DNA of 47,902 nucleotides, taken from an uncultured Acidobacteriota bacterium (lineage in GTDB: Bacteria > Acidobacteriota > Vicinamibacteria > Fen-336). The notes beneath the pieces were generated by a model, which was not told where the DNA came from, did not search any database, and saw only the letters and a program-made list of their open reading frames with translations. The position numbers and the translations under genes were made by a program. Where the stretch lies: assembly GCA_902826455.1 (NCBI GenBank), contig CADEEV010000033.1, forward strand, positions 1 through 47,902. The letters run 5' to 3'. Positions 7,378 to 47,902 of this stretch are shown here, in pieces; position 1 is the first letter of the stretch; every line of letters starts with the position of its first letter.

Positions 7378-7393
7378 TGGCACGAACCTTGGA
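7378..7393 (+). promoter_or_regulatory. Candidate sigma54 promoter of the DUF4136 gene
   Basis: TGGCACGAACCTTGGA: perfect -24 block TGGCACG, preceded by C as in the consensus, a correct 10-base GG to GG spacing, and TTGG in place of TTGC at -12. Transcription would start near 7404, leaving a leader of about 43 bases before ATG 7447. Confidence 0.6.
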
Positions 7394-7446: not shown

Positions 7447-7977
7447 ATGCGGATGACGGCGATGCTGACGGCGGCGTTCGGTCTCTTCGTGGCGGCGCAG
7501 GCGGGCGCCCAGAGCGTGACGTACGACTTCGACAAGAGCGCTTCGTTCGGGACGTTCAAGAGCTACGCGTGGGCCAGGGGCACGCCCGTGGCCGACACGT
7601 TCAACCACCAGCGCATCGTGAGCGCCCTCGACGCGCAGCTCGCGGCGAAAGGCCTCGTGAAGGCCGCCGAAGGCCAGGCCCCGGACGTTGTAGTCGCCTA
7701 CCACGCGATGTTCGACCAGGACGTCCAGGTGACGGGCTTCGCCTCGGGCTGGGGCGGCTTCGGGTTCGGCGGCACGCGCACGGGCTCCGCCCGCGCCGAG
7801 ACGATCCTGATCGGCACCCTCGTGGTCGACGTCGTGGAGCCGAAGACGAAGTCGATCGTGTGGCGCGGCGTCGCGACCAAGGAGATCGACCCCCGGGCCA
7901 GGCCGGAGAAGCGCGACAAGGAGATCCAGCGCGTCGCGGCGAAGCTCTTCAAGAACTACCCGCCGCAGGCGAAGTAG
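7447..7977 (+). CDS. DUF4136-domain secreted protein
   Basis: A 176-residue protein with a signal peptide (about residues 1-22, cleavage near AQAGAQS). The mature part begins VTYDFDKSASFGTFKSYAW, the hallmark opening of DUF4136, and continues with the conserved DVVVAYHA strand, a Gly-rich turn (GWGGFGFGG) and the WRGVATKEI segment near the C-terminus. Many DUF4136 proteins are lipoproteins, but this one has no lipobox Cys and is probably soluble in the periplasm. AGGGAG lies 8 bases before the ATG. A sigma54-like promoter lies about 60 bp upstream. It is convergent to the sigma54 activator pair. Molecular function is not known for the family. Confidence 0.88.
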   Translation: MRMTAMLTAAFGLFVAAQAGAQSVTYDFDKSASFGTFKSYAWARGTPVADTFNHQRIVSALDAQLAAKGLVKAAEGQAPDVVVAYHAMFDQDVQVTGFASGWGGFGFGGTRTGSARAETILIGTLVVDVVEPKTKSIVWRGVATKEIDPRARPEKRDKEIQRVAAKLFKNYPPQAK

Positions 7978-8004: not shown

Positions 8005-12305
<4,301 letters not shown>

Positions 12306-21394: not shown

Positions 21395-22825
21395 ATGCGC
21401 TGCCTCCGCCAGTGCGCCCCGCTGGCGCTGCTGCTGAGCCTGCCCGCCCTGGCCGAGACCGTCCCGGCGCGCGCCCAGTATCAGTCGGGCCTGGCTCGCG
21501 AGCAGGCGAAGGACTGGAACGGCGCCGCGGCCGCCTACGCCGAGGCGCTGCGGCTGTCGCCGGGGATGGCCGAGGCCCACGACCGGCTCGGCTTCGTGCT
21601 CGGGCAGCTCGGCCGGACCGCCGAGGCGCTGGACGAGTTCCGGCGCGCGGCCGAGGCCAACCCCAGGCTGTTCGACGCCCAGTACCACCTCGGCGCGACG
21701 CTGTGGTGGACGAAGCATCCGGCCGGCGCCGCGGTCGCGCTGCGCAAGGCCGTCGCTCTCCAGCCCGCTCACGCCGAGGCCCGCTACTACCTGGGGGCGG
21801 TCCTGCGCCAGACCGGCGACCTCGAGGGCGCCGTCGCGATGCTGCGCGAGGCCGTGCGGCTCAACCCCCGGATCGTGGCGGCCCAGACGACGCTCGGCGT
21901 CGCCCTGCGCGAGATGGGCGATCCCGCCGGCGCCGTGATGGCTTTGCGCAAGGCCGTGGCCATGGCGCCCGCCGACGCCGACGCCGCGAACGGCCTCGGC
22001 CTCGCCCTGATGATGAAGGGCGACGGCGACGAGGCCGTCGCGACGTTCCAGGCCGTGGTCGCGAGCCACCCCGACAACGTCGAGGCCCGTCTCAACCTCG
22101 GCAGCGCGCTGCTCCAGAAGGGCGATCCCGACGGGGCCATCGCCGTGTATCGCGAGCTCGTCGCGCAGCACGCCGACCGTGCCGAGGCGTTCTACAACCT
22201 CGGGCTCGCGCTGAAGCAGAAGGACGACTTCGGTCCGGCCGAGGAAGCGCTGCGGCGCTCGATGGCCCTCGACCGGTCGCTGCCCGATCCGCCGTACACG
22301 CTGGCGGTGATCCTCTGGCAGGCGAACCGCCTCGACGAGGCCGCGGGAGCGCTGCGGGCGGCGCTCGAGACGAACCCCGACTTTCCCGAGGCGCGTTACC
22401 TGCTCGGCACGATCCTCAAGACCCAGGGCGACAGCGCCGGGGCCGCGGCGGAGTTCCGCGCGGCGATCGCGCTGCGGCCGGAGTTTCCCGAGGCGCACCT
22501 GAGCCTCGGCCAGCTCTTGCAGCGCGCGGGCGACCCGGCCGCGGCGGCGGAGCTGGCGGAGGCCGACCGTCTCAGCCGGAAGAAAGTCGATCGGCAGGCT
22601 GCGGCGTTCGCGGTGGACCTGGGCAAGCGCAAGCGGGTGGCCGGCGACGTGGCCGGCGCGATCGCCAGCTTCCGCGAGGCGCTGGGGCTGGCACCCGACC
22701 TGGCCGACGCGCACTACCAGCTGGCCCTGGCCCTGAGCCGCAAGGGCACGACGCCCGAGGCGCGCCGCCACTTCGCCGAGGCGAAGCGTCTCGCGCCGTG
22801 GCTCATGCCTCCCGGGTCCCGATGA
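21395..22825 (+). CDS. Exported TPR-repeat protein (first unit)
   Basis: A 476-residue protein. Residues 1-19 form a signal peptide (ending LPALAETVP). The rest is almost entirely tetratricopeptide repeats, about eleven to twelve in tandem, with the usual W/L-G-Y-A-F-A-P spacing (for example AEAHDRLGFVLGQLGRTAEAL, AEARYYLGAVLRQTGDLEGAV). Upstream in-frame ATGs at 21371 and 21386 exist. 21395 is chosen because it gives the best signal peptide and fits the TAAGAT-7-ATG pattern. Such solenoids act as protein-binding scaffolds. The next gene encodes a CRTAC1 beta-propeller protein and overlaps by 4 bases, so the two products probably work together in the cell envelope. Confidence 0.87.
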   Translation: MRCLRQCAPLALLLSLPALAETVPARAQYQSGLAREQAKDWNGAAAAYAEALRLSPGMAEAHDRLGFVLGQLGRTAEALDEFRRAAEANPRLFDAQYHLGATLWWTKHPAGAAVALRKAVALQPAHAEARYYLGAVLRQTGDLEGAVAMLREAVRLNPRIVAAQTTLGVALREMGDPAGAVMALRKAVAMAPADADAANGLGLALMMKGDGDEAVATFQAVVASHPDNVEARLNLGSALLQKGDPDGAIAVYRELVAQHADRAEAFYNLGLALKQKDDFGPAEEALRRSMALDRSLPDPPYTLAVILWQANRLDEAAGALRAALETNPDFPEARYLLGTILKTQGDSAGAAAEFRAAIALRPEFPEAHLSLGQLLQRAGDPAAAAELAEADRLSRKKVDRQAAAFAVDLGKRKRVAGDVAGAIASFREALGLAPDLADAHYQLALALSRKGTTPEARRHFAEAKRLAPWLMPPGSR

Positions 22826-24474
22826 AGACGCTGCTGCTGGTCGCAGCCCTCGCGTCGGACGCGAGCCTGCCGTACGGCTTCGTGGACGTGGGACGCAAGG
22901 CCGGCCTCGATGCCGTGACCGTGTTCGGCGGGAAGGAGACCAATCGCTACCTGCTCGAGACGACCGGCACGGGCGCCGCGTTCTTCGACGCGGACGGAGA
23001 CGGCTGGCTCGATGCCTTCCTGGTGAACGGCACGACGCTCGCGGGCTTTCCGGCCGGCACGGCGCCGACGAACCACCTGTACCTCAACCGCCACGACGGC
23101 ACGTTCGAGGACGCGACCGCGCGCTCGGGCCTCGCGGCGAGCGGTTGGGGGCAGGGCGTGTGCGCGGGGGACTACGACAACGACGGCCGCGAGGACCTCT
23201 TCGTCACGTACTTCGGCCAGAACCGGCTCTACCACAACGACGGCGGCGCGCGCTTCAGCGACGTCACCGCGAAGGCGGGGCTGAGCGCCGCCCGCACGCG
23301 CTGGGGCGTCGGCTGCGCGTTCCTCGACTACGACCGCGACGGCAAGCTCGACCTGTTCGTGGCCGACTACATCGACCTCGACCTCAAGACCGCGCCGGTG
23401 CCCGACTCGGGCCTGTGCAAGTACAAAGGGATCCCCGTGGCGTGCGGGCCCCCCGGCCTGAAGGGCGGGACGAACGCGCTCTTCCGCAACGCGGGGGCCG
23501 GCCGCTTCGAGGACGTCTCGGCGAAGACCGGCATCACGAAGGCGAAGGGCACGTATGGCCTGGGCGTCAGCACCCTCGACTTCGACGGCGACGGCTGGGT
23601 GGACCTGTACGTCGCCAACGACTCGAGCCCAAGCACGCTCTATCGCAACAACCGCGACGGCACCTTCACGGACATCGCGGTCGGGGCGGGCTGCGCCTTC
23701 AGCATGGACGGCAAGAACCAGGCGGGCATGGGCGTCGCGGTGGGCGACTACGATCGCAACGGCACCATGGACATCTTCAAGACCAACTTCGCGGGGGACA
23801 CCTCGACGCTCTACCGCAACACGGGCGACGGCTACTGCGAGGACCACACGTTCGCCGGCGGCATCGGCACCAACACGCGCTGGCTGGGCTGGGGCGCGGG
23901 CTTCATCGATCTCGCGAACGACGGCTGGCTCGACGTGTTCCTGACGAACGGCCACGTCTATCCCGAGGTGTGGAGGCTGCCGACCGAGGCGGCCTACAAG
24001 CAGCGCAAGGTCGTCTATCGCAACCTGAAGGACGGCCGCTTCGACGACATCAGCGAGGCGCTGGGGGCGCCCGTCACGACGCCGAAGGCGGGACGCGGCA
24101 CGGCCTTCGGCGACTTCGACAACGACGGCACCGTGGACGTGCTGATCAACAACGTCAACGACCGGCCGGACCTGTTCCGCCTGCAGAACAAGACCGCCAA
24201 CCACTGGCTGCTGCTCAAGCTCGTCGGCACCGCGTCGAACCGCAGCGCGATCGGCGCGCGGGTGCAGTCCGTGTCGGCGAACGGGAAGCAGGTCGAGGAG
24301 GTGCGGGGCGGCGGCAGTTATGCCTCCCAGAACGACCTGCGCGTGCACTTCGGCCTGGGCAGCGCCACGACGGCCGATCTCTCCGTGCGCTGGCCGAACG
24401 GCCTCGAGGAGCGCTTCCCGGGCGTCGCGGCCGACCGCATCGTGACGCTGACGGAAGGGACGGGACAGAAATGA
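22822..24474 (+). CDS. CRTAC1-family protein with FG-GAP/VCBS repeats and ASPIC/UnbV domain (first unit)
   Basis: A 550-residue protein beginning with a short signal-like segment (MKTLLLVAALASDA). Seven or so FG-GAP/VCBS repeats follow, each with a calcium-binding loop D-x-D-x-D-G (for example DADGDGWLD, DYDNDGRED, DYDRDGKLD, DFDGDGWVD, DFDNDGTVD), expected to fold as a beta-propeller. The C-terminal 110 residues are the ASPIC/UnbV domain (NHWLLLKLVGTASNRSAIGARV, then LRVHFGLG and VRWPNG). Such proteins are exported and bind calcium; the exact role is unknown. Start ATG overlaps the TPR stop (ATGA). A CKYKG...CGPPGLKGG insertion with two cysteines recurs in the second copy. Confidence 0.92.
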   Translation: MKTLLLVAALASDASLPYGFVDVGRKAGLDAVTVFGGKETNRYLLETTGTGAAFFDADGDGWLDAFLVNGTTLAGFPAGTAPTNHLYLNRHDGTFEDATARSGLAASGWGQGVCAGDYDNDGREDLFVTYFGQNRLYHNDGGARFSDVTAKAGLSAARTRWGVGCAFLDYDRDGKLDLFVADYIDLDLKTAPVPDSGLCKYKGIPVACGPPGLKGGTNALFRNAGAGRFEDVSAKTGITKAKGTYGLGVSTLDFDGDGWVDLYVANDSSPSTLYRNNRDGTFTDIAVGAGCAFSMDGKNQAGMGVAVGDYDRNGTMDIFKTNFAGDTSTLYRNTGDGYCEDHTFAGGIGTNTRWLGWGAGFIDLANDGWLDVFLTNGHVYPEVWRLPTEAAYKQRKVVYRNLKDGRFDDISEALGAPVTTPKAGRGTAFGDFDNDGTVDVLINNVNDRPDLFRLQNKTANHWLLLKLVGTASNRSAIGARVQSVSANGKQVEEVRGGGSYASQNDLRVHFGLGSATTADLSVRWPNGLEERFPGVAADRIVTLTEGTGQK

Positions 24475-25463
24475 AGCGCGCCCTCGTGACCCTGCTTCTC
24501 GCGACGGCGTCGCCGGCGTTCGCCGAGGACGCGACGGCTCCAGCGCTGGCCGAAGCGCGGGAGCTGCTGGCCCGGGACAACCCGCAAGCGGCCCTGGCGC
24601 GCGTCAGGGACCTCGACGCGACCGACCCGCGCGTCCGCCTGGTCGCGGGCGTCGCGCACTACCACGCGGGAGACGCCACGGCCGCGGTCGCGACCCTGAC
24701 CCCGCTCGTGGCGACCCTCGCGAAGGGCACGCCGGAGCGCCGCGAGGCCGTCCAGGTGCTGGGCCTCTCGAACTACCTGGCGGGACACCTGATCGCCGCC
24801 CGCCCGCTCCTCGAGGAGACCCGCGAGTGGGCGAAGGACACCCTGGAGTTCAACCAGATCCTCGGCAACGTCTACATCGAGACCCAGAAGCCTGACGGCG
24901 CCCGCGAGTGCTTCGCGCGCGCCTACGGCGTCGCCGCCGATTCCGCCGCGGCCCACCTGCTCGCGGCCCAGATGATGATCCGCGTCGAGCAGGAGGCGAT
25001 GGCGGAGGCCGAGCTCAAGCAGGCGCTCGCCAAGGACCCGAAGCTGCCGCAGGTCCACCTGCTGCTCGGGCAGCAGGCCCTGTTCCGCGGCCGTCTCGAG
25101 GAGGCGCTCACGCTCACGCGCCAGGAGCTCGACGTGAACCCCGGCAACGCCATGGCGTGGGCGCAGCTCGGCGACGCGTACTCGCGGCAGCAGCGCTGGG
25201 ACGAGGCCACGGCGGCCCTGCAGAAGTCCATCTGGATCAACCCCTACTACAGCGCGCCCTACATCCTGCTGGGACGCGCGTACATGAAGAAGAACCAGCC
25301 CTCGACCGCCGAGGGCATGCTGCGCCGCGCCCTCTCCTACGATCCCAACAACAAGTCGGCCCACTACCTGCTGGGCCAGGTGCTGCAGCGGCTCGGCCGC
25401 GAGGACGAGGCGCGCCGCGAGATGGACACGGCGGCGACGCTGCAGGACCAGGTCGAGCGTTGA
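24471..25463 (+). CDS. Exported TPR-repeat protein (second unit)
   Basis: A 330-residue protein with a signal peptide (residues 1-18, ending SPAFAED) and about eight TPR units. The repeats from residue 165 onward (AAHLLAAQMMIRVEQ, PQVHLLLGQQALFRGRLEEAL, AMAWAQLGDAYSRQQRWDEA, SAPYILLGRAYMKKNQ, SAHYLLGQVLQRLGREDEA) are the clearest. It is shorter than the first TPR protein and not a simple copy of it. The ATG overlaps the first CRTAC1 stop, and its own stop overlaps the TTG start of the second CRTAC1 gene. The alternation suggests paired scaffold and propeller products. Confidence 0.87.
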   Translation: MKRALVTLLLATASPAFAEDATAPALAEARELLARDNPQAALARVRDLDATDPRVRLVAGVAHYHAGDATAAVATLTPLVATLAKGTPERREAVQVLGLSNYLAGHLIAARPLLEETREWAKDTLEFNQILGNVYIETQKPDGARECFARAYGVAADSAAAHLLAAQMMIRVEQEAMAEAELKQALAKDPKLPQVHLLLGQQALFRGRLEEALTLTRQELDVNPGNAMAWAQLGDAYSRQQRWDEATAALQKSIWINPYYSAPYILLGRAYMKKNQPSTAEGMLRRALSYDPNNKSAHYLLGQVLQRLGREDEARREMDTAATLQDQVER

Positions 25464-27160
25464 AGCTCGCCGTCGCCGCCCTCGTCGCCGCACCGTTCCT
25501 GGCCCTGGCCGCCGCCGAGCCGACGGGGGAGTGGGGCGTCTCCTTCGTGGACGTGGCCGCCCGGGCCGGTCTCAGGGGCGTGTCGGTCTACGGCGGCCTC
25601 GAGAAGAAGCGCTTCATCATCGAGACGAACGGCGCCGGCGTCGCCTTCGTGGACTACGACGACGATGGCTGGTCCGATGCCTTCGTGCTCTCGGGCACGC
25701 GCCTCGAGGAGGGCACGCGCAAGGAGAGGACGTGGCCGAAGGGGGCGGCCCCGACCAACCGTCTCTATCGCAACAACCGCGACGGCACGTTCGCCGACGT
25801 CACGGACACGGCGGGGCTGCGGCGCACCGGCTGGGCGTCCTCGGTCTGCGCCGGCGACTACGACAACGACGGCCACACGGACCTGTTCGTCACGTCCTAC
25901 GGCCAGGACGTGCTCTATCGCAACGCCGGCGGCCGCTTCGTCGACGTGACGGCCAAGGCCGGCCTCGCGTCCACGGCCACGCGCTGGGGCTCGGGCTGCA
26001 CGTTCGTCGACTACGATCGCGACGGGAAGCTCGACTTGTTCGTGACGCGCTACCTGAAGCTCGACCTCGCGACCGTGAACGAGCCCGGCCAGGGCCAGAG
26101 CTGCCTGTGGAAGGGCATCCCCGTGAACTGCGGGCCGAAAGGCCTGCCGACCGACGTCAACGCGCTCTTCCACAACGAAGGCGACGGCGTGTTCAGGGAC
26201 GTCTCCGAGGCCTCGGGCGTCGCGAAGGTCACGAACCGCTACGCGATGACGGCACTCGCCGCCGACCTCGACGCCGACGGCTGGACCGACCTGTACGTGG
26301 CCTGCGATTCGACCGCCGCGATCCTGTACCGCAACAACCGCGACGGCACCTTCACCGACGTGGCGCTCGCGAGTGGTGCCGCGCTCTCGGAGTTCGGCAA
26401 CGAGCAGGCGGGCATGGGCCTGGGCGTGGGCGACTACGACAACGACGGCCGCCTCGACATCGTGAAGACGCACTTCGCCGACGACATCCCGGCGCTGTAT
26501 CACGGCCTCGGCCGCGGCCTGTTCGAGGACGTGGCCACGGCGGTGGGCCTGGGCGTGCAGAACCGCTACGTGGAGTGGGGCACGGGAACGCCCGATCTCG
26601 ACAACGACGGCTGGCCCGACCTCTTCTACGTCACGGGCAACGTCTATCCCGAGATCGAGGCCCACCTGCCGCAGTACCCGCACCGCGGGCCGAAGGTGGT
26701 CTTCCGCAACCGCGGCGGCCAGCGCTTCGAGGACGTGAGCGCGCGGAGCGGCCCCGGTGCCACGACGGGACACTCGAGCCGCGGCGCGGCGTTCTCGGAC
26801 TTCGACAACGACGGCGACGTGGACGTCCTGGTGATGAACATGAACGAGCCGCCGTCGCTGCTCCGCAACGACTACGCGGGCAGGAACGGCTGGCTGGAGC
26901 TCGCCCTCGAGGGCACGCGCTCCAATCGCTCGGCGATCGGCGCCTCGGTGGTGGTGACGGCGGGCGGCCGGACCCAGGCGCAGACCGTCACGAGCCAGTC
27001 GAGCTACTACTCCCACGACGACCTGCGCCTGCACTTCGGGCTCGGGAGCGCCACGAAGGCCGACAGCGTCGCCATCCGCTGGCCGAGCGGCACGCTGCAG
27101 ACCTTGCGGGACGTGCCGGCCCGCAAGGCGCTGACGGTGCGCGAAGCCGAGGCGCGCTAG
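25460..27160 (+). CDS. CRTAC1-family protein with FG-GAP/VCBS repeats and ASPIC/UnbV domain (second unit)
   Basis: A 566-residue paralogue of the first CRTAC1 protein. The start is a TTG at 25460 overlapping the preceding stop (TTGA), giving a signal peptide of about 21 residues ending in LALAAAEP. The calcium-loop repeats include DYDDDGWSD, DYDNDGHTD, DYDRDGKLD, DLDADGWTD, DYDNDGRLD, DLDNDGWPD and DFDNDGDVD. The ASPIC/UnbV end is NGWLELALEGTRSNRSAIGASV with LRLHFGLG and IRWPSG. The two-cysteine insertion SCLWKGIPVNCGPKGL matches the first copy. The TAG stop shares CTAG with the convergent glycosidase gene. Confidence 0.92.
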   Translation: MKLAVAALVAAPFLALAAAEPTGEWGVSFVDVAARAGLRGVSVYGGLEKKRFIIETNGAGVAFVDYDDDGWSDAFVLSGTRLEEGTRKERTWPKGAAPTNRLYRNNRDGTFADVTDTAGLRRTGWASSVCAGDYDNDGHTDLFVTSYGQDVLYRNAGGRFVDVTAKAGLASTATRWGSGCTFVDYDRDGKLDLFVTRYLKLDLATVNEPGQGQSCLWKGIPVNCGPKGLPTDVNALFHNEGDGVFRDVSEASGVAKVTNRYAMTALAADLDADGWTDLYVACDSTAAILYRNNRDGTFTDVALASGAALSEFGNEQAGMGLGVGDYDNDGRLDIVKTHFADDIPALYHGLGRGLFEDVATAVGLGVQNRYVEWGTGTPDLDNDGWPDLFYVTGNVYPEIEAHLPQYPHRGPKVVFRNRGGQRFEDVSARSGPGATTGHSSRGAAFSDFDNDGDVDVLVMNMNEPPSLLRNDYAGRNGWLELALEGTRSNRSAIGASVVVTAGGRTQAQTVTSQSSYYSHDDLRLHFGLGSATKADSVAIRWPSGTLQTLRDVPARKALTVREAEAR

Positions 27161-32701: not shown

Positions 32702-33190
32702 TCAGGGCTTGCGGCCCATCTCCCGCTCGATCCGGTACCAGGCGTCCTTCACGGCCGGGCTCGCCTTCGACCAGTCGAGCACGCGGTCGTCCTTGAGGCG
32801 CCACTCCTCTCGCAGCTTCGGCTCCGCCTCGTCCCAGGTGAGGTTCTCGTAGCGCGAGCGCCCCTCCCAGCCGTGGCGATACGCCGGCTGGTAGACCTTG
32901 TAGTGCGCGCCCGTGTCGACGTACGGCTGGGAGACGTAGTGGTCGCGCCAGAAGGCGTCCTCGACGGTGGGGTTCACGCTCTCCGCGATGCCCTTGCCGG
33001 TGAGGCCGCCCACCACGCCGCCGATGGCGGCGCCGACGGCCGTTCCAGCCGGGCCTGCGGTCGAGCCCAGGGCAGCGCCGAGGGCTGCCCCGCCCGCGCT
33101 GCCGAGGCCGACGCCCACGGGAAGGGCCCCCGGAGCGCCCGTGATCGGATCCCGGTTCGCGTCCGCGGCCGCGTCTTCTTCATGGGTCAT
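32702..33190 (-). CDS. Glycine-zipper protein of unknown function
   Basis: A 162-residue protein. After an acidic start, residues 20-70 are a Gly/Ala-rich glycine-zipper stretch (VGVGLGSAGGAALGAALG, GTAVGAAIGGVVGGLTG) able to insert in a membrane or pack helices. The C-terminal half holds the aromatic, charged pattern YQPAYRHGWEGRSRYENLTW and WDEAEPKLREEW, ending AWYRIEREMG. Such two-part proteins recur in stress-related settings, but no function is established. GGAGGG lies 7 bases before the ATG. It stands alone between the agmatine operon and the small membrane-protein genes. Confidence 0.8.
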   Translation of the reverse strand: MTHEEDAAADANRDPITGAPGALPVGVGLGSAGGAALGAALGSTAGPAGTAVGAAIGGVVGGLTGKGIAESVNPTVEDAFWRDHYVSQPYVDTGAHYKVYQPAYRHGWEGRSRYENLTWDEAEPKLREEWRLKDDRVLDWSKASPAVKDAWYRIEREMGRKP

Positions 33191-33332
33191 GGCTTGCCCT
33201 CCATGGCGGATGACAGCAAGGAGCGTGCCCCAGCTCGCGGCCCGGAAGGTGCTGAAAACGCGCGATGAACGGCAGGCGCGACGCGCGTGGAGCAGCGGCG
33301 ATTCTCGAAACGGCCGTGGCGGTTCGGGCCGG

Positions 33333-45881: not shown

Positions 45882-45885
<4 letters not shown>

Positions 45886-47039
45886 GCGCCCCGAAGCTGC
45901 GGGAGCCAGCTTCGGACGCGGCGCCGCAGCTCGCGTAGCCTCGACCGGCGGCGGGCCCGGCGTATCGAGCGCGCAAGGTCGGCTCGGCCGTGCTCCCGGG
46001 CCCAGGCCTCGACCTGCCAGGCGTAGTAGCGATCCGTCCGGTCGTGGAGCGGAAGGCGCTCGACCACGTCTCGCGACAGCGGCCGGCCGCCGAGGCCGGG
46101 GCAACGTTCGATGACCCCGAGCGCGTCGAGAGCGATCGCGGTGCGGAGGCACTTCTCGCAGCGATTGCAATTGGTCTCGTCGCCGGTCCGAAGGCACACG
46201 CGCAGGCAGCCCAGCGCCAGCTCGGAGCGCGCGATCGCGACCACCTTGTCCATGCGCGAGTGAGCGACGCCGTCGCACACGACCGCGGTGCGAGCGGTCG
46301 ACAGCAGCACGTCCGTCATCGGATGGCTGCCCCAGGCCGGGAGCCAGCCCATCCAGAGGCTGGCGGGCATCAGGATGCGGTCGAAGCGCCCTTCGAGGCC
46401 CAACGCGACCGCACCGAGCAGCGAGCCGAGAGAAATGTGAGCCAGGTCGCTCCGCCGGAGGCTCGACTCGACGACGTTGGTGGCGCCCACCAGCAGCGGC
46501 TTGCCCAGACTGTCCGCTGCAGCGGACAGCCGGCGATGCGCCCGTTCGAAGGCGGCGGGCGGCTCGAGCGGCAGGTCGAGGGCTCCGTGAACGAGCAGCA
46601 GGTCGTGGATGGGCGCCGCGCGCGGAACGAGGGCGCTGAACCACGAGTCGACGCCGCCGGAAAAGAAGCTGACGGTACGGCCCGGTCGCTCCGGCGCGGC
46701 AGGTCCGAGGACGTCGGCCTCGATGGGCACGAGCGGTCGCGATCGATCCCACGCGTGCCAGATGGCCAGACGCTCGCGCGCGTTGTCGAGAAGGCGTGCA
46801 TCCACCGGCAGGCGCAACACCAGCGGCTCGCCCAGGCGCAGGGCGCGCGGCAGCAGGCACGCGAGCCAGGGATTGCCGGAGCGCGACACCTCCGGCTCGC
46901 ACGTCCCCGGATATTCGAACCAGAAGCGTTCCTCGAGAGGCTGCGCGCCATGGCCTCGCGCGAAGCGCACGCGGCCCGTGAGACGCACGTTCGAAGCGAC
47001 GCGCGGCGATCGTTCGATCGCGATGTCCAGGAGCTCCAC
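45882..47039 (-). CDS. PP-loop (QueC-like) ATPase of unknown function
   Basis: A 385-residue protein. The N-terminal third (about 1-125) is an unrecognised domain. The middle has the PP-loop pyrophosphatase motif SFFSGGVDSWFSAL, which binds ATP in QueC-like and related adenylating enzymes. Downstream, NCNRCEKCLRT offers a three-cysteine cluster comparable with the zinc site of QueC. An Arg-rich tail closes the protein. The start is taken as GTG 47039 (VELLDIAI), with TACGAT 6 bases upstream; a TTG at 47093 would add 18 residues. QueC-like proteins occur in 7-deazaguanine synthesis and in the Qat anti-phage system, but no partner genes of either are adjacent. Confidence 0.75.
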
Positions 47040-47045
47040 GGAACG

Positions 47046-47051
47046 ATCGTA
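47046..47051 (-). promoter_or_regulatory. -10 box TACGAT of the PP-loop gene
   Basis: TACGAT on the minus strand is followed by 6 bases and GTG 47039. If used, the mRNA would be leaderless and the longer TTG start at 47093 would be excluded. Confidence 0.35.
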
Positions 47052-47109
47052 CGCGGAGCCGTTTGTAGATTCGACACCTCGAAAAGCCTGCAAGTGTTTC
47101 AGATTGTGA

Positions 47110-47125
47110 TGGCACGTTCGTTGCT
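47110..47125 (+). promoter_or_regulatory. Sigma54 promoter of the DUF6600 gene
   Basis: TGGCACGTTCGTTGCT matches the sigma54 consensus TGGCACG-N4-TTGCW at every conserved position, with the exact 10-base spacing between GG (47111-47112) and GC (47123-47124). Transcription would begin near 47137, giving a leader of about 85 bases to ATG 47222. Confidence 0.82.
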
Positions 47126-47221
47126 TTGGTCAACGGTGTCGCTGCACGTGAGAAGCGATCGGGGCTCGGGTCTCGATCGCGATCACCGGCCCGATGAGGG
47201 CTTTGGAAAGAGAGGTCGCAG

Positions 47222-47902
47222 ATGCGCCGGACACTTCAGATCCTGACGCTCGCAGGCGTCGCCGGTTGGTCGCTCCTCGGCGCGCGCGCCGAGGCGCAGT
47301 CCTACCCGCAGTCCCCTTACGACAACCGCTACGACGATCGCTACGACAACCGCTACGACCGTCAGATCGACGAGAGCTTCTTCTACCAGAACCTCTCGCC
47401 GTACGGCGACTGGGTCGAGATGCCGGAGTACGGCTGGGCCTTCGCGCCCCGCGTCGACTACGGCTGGCGTCCCTACACCCGCGGCCAATGGATCAACACC
47501 GACGACGGCTGGTACTGGGACTCGGACGAGCGATTCGGCTGGGCCACGTACCACTACGGCCGCTGGGTGAACGACCGGCGCTACGGCTGGATCTGGGTGC
47601 CGGGCACGGAGTGGGCTCCGGCCTGGGTGTCCTGGCGTCACGGCGACGGCTACACCGGCTGGGCGCCCCTGCCGCCGCGCGCGCAATTCCAGGCGCACAT
47701 CGGCCTGAACATCGGCGGCCTGGACATCGACGCCTACATCGGGCGCGACGACTATTCCTTCGTGCCCGATCGCTACCTGGTCGAACGCGGCGTCTACCAG
47801 CGCGTCGTGCCGCCGACCCAGAACGTCACGATCATCAACAACACGACCAACATCACGAACTACACCGTAGTGAACCAGCGCGTCGTCAATCGGGGCATCG
47901 AC
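47222..47902 (+). CDS. Exported Trp/Tyr-rich DUF6600-type protein, 3' end cut by the window
   Basis: 227 codons are visible and the frame runs off the window. A signal peptide covers about residues 1-26 (ending ARAEAQS). A short repeat RYDDRYDNRYDR follows, then the tryptophan-rich module SPYGDWVEMPEYGWAF, YGWRPYTRGQWINT, DGWYWDSDERFGWATYHYGRW, YGWIWVPGTEWAPAWVSWR and GWAPLPP, which is the DUF6600 pattern of exported proteins. The visible end is Asn/Thr/Val-rich (NNTTNITNYTVVNQRV). AGAGAGG lies about 7 bases upstream. A sigma54 promoter lies about 100 bp upstream. The role is unknown; a cell-surface or envelope location is likely. Confidence 0.85.
   Translation, partial: MRRTLQILTLAGVAGWSLLGARAEAQSYPQSPYDNRYDDRYDNRYDRQIDESFFYQNLSPYGDWVEMPEYGWAFAPRVDYGWRPYTRGQWINTDDGWYWDSDERFGWATYHYGRWVNDRRYGWIWVPGTEWAPAWVSWRHGDGYTGWAPLPPRAQFQAHIGLNIGGLDIDAYIGRDDYSFVPDRYLVERGVYQRVVPPTQNVTIINNTTNITNYTVVNQRVVNRGID

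Follow-up and report, generated by a model that had tools for sequence, protein, structure and literature searches.

The gene at the 3' end of the analysed window, a stretch of 47,902 nt, encodes a DUF6600 protein and lies directly behind a conserved -24/-12 element of the sigma54 type. The best explanation as a whole, which we hold with considerable confidence, is that this element is a genuine RpoN promoter, served by a palindrome-bound activator within a stress/envelope regulon, with an NtrC-type response regulator encoded on contig C1 as the likeliest activator. The site, its non-random placement and its conservation, as well as rpoN and the activator genes, were read directly from the sequence. 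To our knowledge, sigma54 regulons have hardly been described in Acidobacteriota. Our analysis predicts a large one of envelope and stress genes in this phylum, together with a candidate activator and a candidate binding site, and places DUF6600 under sigma54 in two phyla, each with a palindrome of its own, which provides the family with a regulatory context and a route to its function.

Table 1 Features of the window relevant to the sigma54-type element and its downstream gene.
Feature	Position	Strand	Basis or remark
Third sigma54-like site TGGCACGAACCTTGGA, 1 mismatch	7378..7393	+	69 bp before DUF4136 gene
DUF4136 (PF13590) exported protein	7447..7977	+	
GAF-type sigma54 activator, bystander on present evidence	8005..10137	-	GAF, AAA+, Fis-type HTH, GAFTGA
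Second GAF-type sigma54 activator, bystander on present evidence	10137..12305	-	GAF, AAA+, Fis-type HTH, GAFTGA
Glycine-zipper protein (PF13488), relative of C1 genes having sigma54 sites	32702..33190	-	
Second sigma54 site GGGCACGCTCCTTGCT, 1 mismatch	33215..33230	-	40 bp before glycine-zipper gene
Palindrome GATTCTCGAAAC, 2 mismatches	33300..33311	.	upstream of sigma54 site before glycine-zipper gene
Putative enhancer GTTTGTAGATTC (GTTTSTASAAAC, 2 mismatches)	47061..47072	.	49 bp upstream of -24 element
sigma54 -24/-12 promoter element TGGCACGTTCGTTGCT	47110..47125	+	motif match, genome-wide placement, orthologue conservation
Inferred transcription start	47135..47137	+	usual 12-nt distance to GC of -12 element
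DUF6600 (PF20245) Trp-rich protein, very likely exported, truncated by contig end	47222..47902	+	Pfam match; AlphaFold2 model

The element TGGCACGTTCGTTGCT agrees with TGGCACG-N4-TTGCW, the invariant GG and GC included, at the right spacing (0 mismatches), and its TGGCACG-N4-TTGCT lies 112 bp 5' of the ATG at 47222. An earlier note on this DNA had reported a near-perfect match here, and both its sequence and its coordinates were correct as given. Judged from the -12 element at 47121-47125, transcription would be expected to start at around 47136, in agreement with the 47137 proposed earlier. The leader from this predicted start to the ATG would span about 86 nt, and its length is similar in the two closest orthologues. 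Neither a sigma70-type promoter nor a terminator-like site was found in 46950-47300. The genome also encodes a complete RpoN, an ORF of 476 aa with an ARRTVAKYRE box (contig C4:122182).

Across the 5.26-Mb genome, 59 sites with the true spacing occur at ≤1 mismatch. Six of these are exact, the window site among them, while the control with a spacer of five (one base longer) yielded no exact match and 20 at ≤1 mismatch. All six exact sites are intergenic and correctly oriented, with a start codon 29-126 bp downstream, and 42 of the 59 lie within 150 bp of a correctly oriented start codon, as defined by the simple home-made codon-usage caller with which the genes around every site were called. 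Background rates were taken from sampled stretches of the genome. Because 55 of the 59 sites are intergenic (6/6 exact and 49/53 with one mismatch) compared to 2/20 of the spacer-5 controls, the sites with true spacing are, by their placement, overwhelmingly promoters as a class. The window itself holds three sites at ≤1 mismatch against 0.21 expected, a number reached in 0/100 shuffles. The two additional sites, at 7378 (+) and 33230 (-), directly precede genes; both had been overlooked by the earlier note, as had the membership of the window promoter in a regulon of several dozen sites with an enhancer motif of its own.

The genes behind these sites include stress and envelope types, i.e. 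Fe/Mn-SOD, a long catalase, BON, CsbD, DUF5670 and glycine-zipper proteins, but also an AI-2E transporter, DoxX, KaiC, a lipid kinase and a lytic transglycosylase. Further members are a Ser/Thr kinase, a pilin-type protein, DUF4136 and the second DUF6600 gene of the genome, a FecR + DUF6600 fusion in which CGGCACGGGCCTTGCT is 40 bp upstream of the ATG. Because the SOD, catalase, BON, CsbD, DUF5670 and glycine-zipper genes all stand behind such sites, we assign DUF6600 to an envelope/stress-type sigma54 regulon. Several of the genes are clustered on C1, C62 and C69. In these clusters (C1:475000-494999, C69 and C62), the sigma54 sites, some of them back to back, precede catalase, SOD, BON, DUF5670, glycine-zipper and PPOX-like genes, and the whole may be read as a stress-type island under sigma54. 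Separately, a type IV pilin-like gene (N_methyl; C26:57062) has a site 62 bp upstream and a sigma54 activator next to it, an arrangement as in PilR-controlled pilA.

Conservation of the element was assessed in the closest orthologues, from G006 (JAMPXO010000037, a Vicinamibacteria MAG) and G001 (PMCG01000312, an Acidobacteria MAG), at 70% and 75% identity. The earlier note had named the orthologous upstream regions as the place where its proposal might fail; there, G006 retains TGGCTCGCGGCTTGCA at -111 and G001 retains TGGCTCGCCTCTTGCA at -120. Both sites read TGGCTCG-N4-TTGCA and differ in spacer and flanks. The search for the motif before DUF6600 genes of relatives, likewise suggested earlier, recovered it both before the family's FecR-DUF6600 paralogues and in a second phylum. 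In a class-level sample of 90 DUF6600 genes with upstream sequence, 15/18 from the family of the window have a site at ≤2 mismatches within 130 bp, compared to 1.1% in shuffles, 1.9% for other ORFs in the same loci, 0/18 in antisense and 0-1/18 with shifted spacers. One of the three siteless genes (G006:C177:18103) is the second gene after a site-bearing DUF5670-like gene. Three further families of Vicinamibacteria show recognisable sites, and the remainder of the class is near background.

Named genomes searched with short DUF6600 proteins extended the comparison to Ignavibacteria/Bacteroidota, Verrucomicrobia and alphaproteobacteria. In Ignavibacteria/Bacteroidota, 20 of the 21 short DUF6600 genes carry TGGCAY-N5-TTG within 150 bp, counts that are not all independent because the records are partly close kin (e.g. 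L299/L300, L323/L324). The distance from motif to ATG is almost always 43-62 bp, and the genomes range from 27 to 59% G+C. The motif was found at 0/162 other ORFs in the same loci; altered spacers gave at most one. No sigma54 site was present before the DUF6600 genes of Verrucomicrobia and alphaproteobacteria. In 13 of these 21 partly related Ignavibacteria/Bacteroidota genes, a TGT-N12-ACA palindrome is located ~67 bp above the site (0.8 expected). It reads TGTYCA-N6-TGRACA in loci L299-L326, where 65-70 bp separate it from the -24 element downstream, and is probably the enhancer of another activator.

Upstream of the sigma54 sites of our genome, 11/60 regions contain TCTACAAA-like words (0.03 expected), which make up the palindrome GTTTSTASAAAC. 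This palindrome was discovered in the same upstream regions in which it was counted, although neither the two-fold symmetry nor the genome-wide counts had been built in. Genome-wide, 14 copies occur at ≤1 mismatch and 2 of the reversed control pattern. A sigma54 site lies no more than 200 bp from 11 of the 14 copies, compared to a baseline of 1.25%. Only two palindromes of this type are found in the window at ≤2 mismatches (0.48 expected), both listed in Table 1. The 12-mer GTTTGTAGATTC recurs identically before a BON-domain gene (C1:494293), 69 bp upstream of its perfect promoter. The divergent neighbour on the minus strand (45882-47093) has no Pfam match; inspection by eye suggests a motif of the PP-loop type (SGGVDS). 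Its start is uncertain, with 47039, 47077 and 47093 as candidates, and the palindrome at 47061 could therefore fall inside its first codons.

As a family-wide mark, GTTTSTASAAAC was rejected, since among the relatives examined only G006 matches our genome in having exact palindromes frequently. Strong at the level of the regulon, the palindrome is nevertheless absent upstream of DUF6600 in both the G006 and the G001 orthologue. A single enhancer common to both kinds of DUF6600 gene was also discarded. The FecR-DUF6600 genes show no GTTTSTASAAAC palindrome upstream and have GRGGAC repeats instead, which argues for more than one activator at work. These GRGGAC(A/G) direct repeats lie 30-90 bp above the sigma54 site (e.g. 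L103, L098, L100, L055), with CGTCCTC in 8/14 FecR-DUF6600 upstream regions (0.74 expected), and could constitute a third kind of enhancer.

Which activator might operate at the DUF6600 promoter? The earlier note had pointed to two sigma54 activators encoded in the same window. Both genes indeed carry GAF, AAA+ and Fis-type HTH domains with GAFTGA. The proposed sigma54 promoter before DUF6600, with its conserved motif, is supported; the role hinted for these activators is not. They lie 35-39 kb away, the genome has 19 strong Sigma54_activat matches in a profile search, and a better candidate is found on C1. No sigma54 site or palindrome that would suggest self-linkage was found beside them. 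As the genome has many activators and nothing ties these two to the promoter, we rejected them as evidence for it.

The C1 candidate (C1:478444-479775) is an NtrC-type response regulator with Response_reg, Sigma54_activat and HTH_8 domains and a GSFTGA loop. Together with a histidine kinase, it is encoded inside the C1 sigma54 cluster (C1:478444-481565). The palindrome GTTTCTAGAATC lies between this operon and a sigma54-driven DUF5670 gene (C1:481616), and the same arrangement recurs in G002 with a similar site. Orthologues of the response regulator (65-75%) are present in 8 relatives and stand well apart from the next-best regulators, which reach ≤62% in the relative with the 75% copy and ≤48% otherwise. 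In G001, the orthologue and DUF6600 share one 6.5-kb contig, and in other relatives its neighbours are BON or glycine-zipper genes that have sigma54 sites. The kinase was dropped as a marker of the regulon because, of the relatives searched, G002 alone yielded a full-length orthologue of it, and the response regulator was used instead. We name this response regulator as the likeliest candidate for the activator of the DUF6600 promoter, an assignment made tentatively, with belief falling a little behind doubt.

Equal weight goes to a reading in which the sigma54 promoter is real, the activator is another enhancer-binding protein, possibly one of the GAF-type proteins of the window, and a different factor binds the palindrome. 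The abundance of strong AAA+ activators, including the two window proteins with their intact GAFTGA, and the orthologous DUF6600 promoters devoid of the palindrome speak for it, as does the imperfect tracking of response regulator and palindrome across relatives, the former occurring in more of them than frequent palindromes do. It is weakened by the distance of the window activators and the lack of a site or palindrome beside them, and by the response regulator being linked to DUF6600 in G001 and lying inside a sigma54 cluster here.

In the mechanism we prefer, built around the C1 response regulator, sigma54 RNA polymerase would wait at 47110-47125 as a closed complex, which an enhancer-binding activator on the palindrome around 47061-47072 would open by ATP hydrolysis, so that transcription would begin near 47136. 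The DUF6600 gene would belong to a regulon in which several dozen sigma54 promoters drive envelope and stress-type genes, and the NtrC-type response regulator with its histidine kinase would be the activator most likely acting here. We infer in this scheme the use of the promoter, the activator that binds, the signal that is answered and the role of the DUF6600 protein.

The long leader, similar in G006 and G001, could indicate that the promoter serves a small RNA or leader instead of DUF6600. We consider this very improbable: no terminator-like site was found in 46950-47300, and a long leader is not a constant feature, because the site is only 40-65 bp from the ATG in FecR-DUF6600 genes and Ignavibacteria. 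Equally improbable is a chance match of the 16-mer with DUF6600 transcribed from a different promoter, for although a single 16-mer cannot prove use and GC-rich genomes yield many weak matches (e.g. the 20 spacer-5 matches), the placement, the spacing control, the conservation in orthologues, the recurrence in a second phylum and the lack of a sigma70-like alternative nearby all oppose it.

The promoter itself is an ordinary sigma54 promoter of known type. With general sigma54/NtrC-type systems it shares TGGCACG-N4-TTGCW, a complete RpoN, AAA+ activators with GAFTGA/GSFTGA and putative palindromic activator sites upstream; it differs in that no entry was found for a DUF6600 target family or a GTTTSTASAAAC site. 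The general stress regulons that sigmaS, sigmaB or EcfG control have a similar gene content (CsbD, BON, catalase, SOD). In this genome such genes have sigma54 sites, and the likeness is one of gene content. A more speculative and rather unlikely extension would have a sigma54/NtrC-type regulator module acting via GTTTSTASAAAC take the role in Vicinamibacteria that sigmaS, sigmaB or EcfG have in other bacteria. It would govern general stress and envelope remodelling, with DUF6600 proteins as core envelope components and the DUF6600-sigma54 link shared with Ignavibacteria/Bacteroidota.

The survey by Francke et al. (2011, PMC3162934) casts sigma54 as controller of the bacterial exterior, in line with the targets found here, most of which are exported, membrane or surface proteins; oxidative-stress enzymes among our targets mark a difference. 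The text of that survey makes no mention of Acidobacteria, Solibacter or Koribacter. In the sigma54 regulome of Desulfovibrio vulgaris (PMC4641369), many activators are response regulators, some annotated as envelope/general stress (DVU1419, DVU3305), and one class of activator sites consists of TGT/ACA half sites separated by 9, 11 or 12 bp, which resemble the TGT-N12-ACA sites of Ignavibacteria. That regulome belongs to another phylum and comprises another gene set, and the palindrome in our genome is GTTTSTASAAAC. The literature search returned no paper naming DUF6600 or PF20245 and nothing relevant on sigma54 in Vicinamibacter or Ignavibacterium. As far as the literature was searched, the link of DUF6600 to sigma54 across phyla and the stress/envelope regulon are unreported.

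The downstream product had been described as a tryptophan-rich exported DUF6600 protein, which is borne out by a Pfam match to PF20245 (E 1.4e-35; 121.9 bits against a curated cut-off of 27), by 15 Trp among the 227 residues present and by a hydrophobic, signal-like N-terminus. As the window is the entire contig C33, the gene is truncated by the contig end. Export of the protein is very likely. A confident AlphaFold2 model of the DUF6600 domain (pLDDT 84; about 95 over residues 50-150) features Trp-rich beta hairpins in succession. Searches of the PDB gave no meaningful structural match to this model (Foldseek reached E 1.2 and VIA-align Z 2.0 at best) and no sequence relatives, which does not demonstrate a new fold. 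Elsewhere in the window, at 22822-27160, two genes alike in size and sequence style alternate with TPR-like genes.
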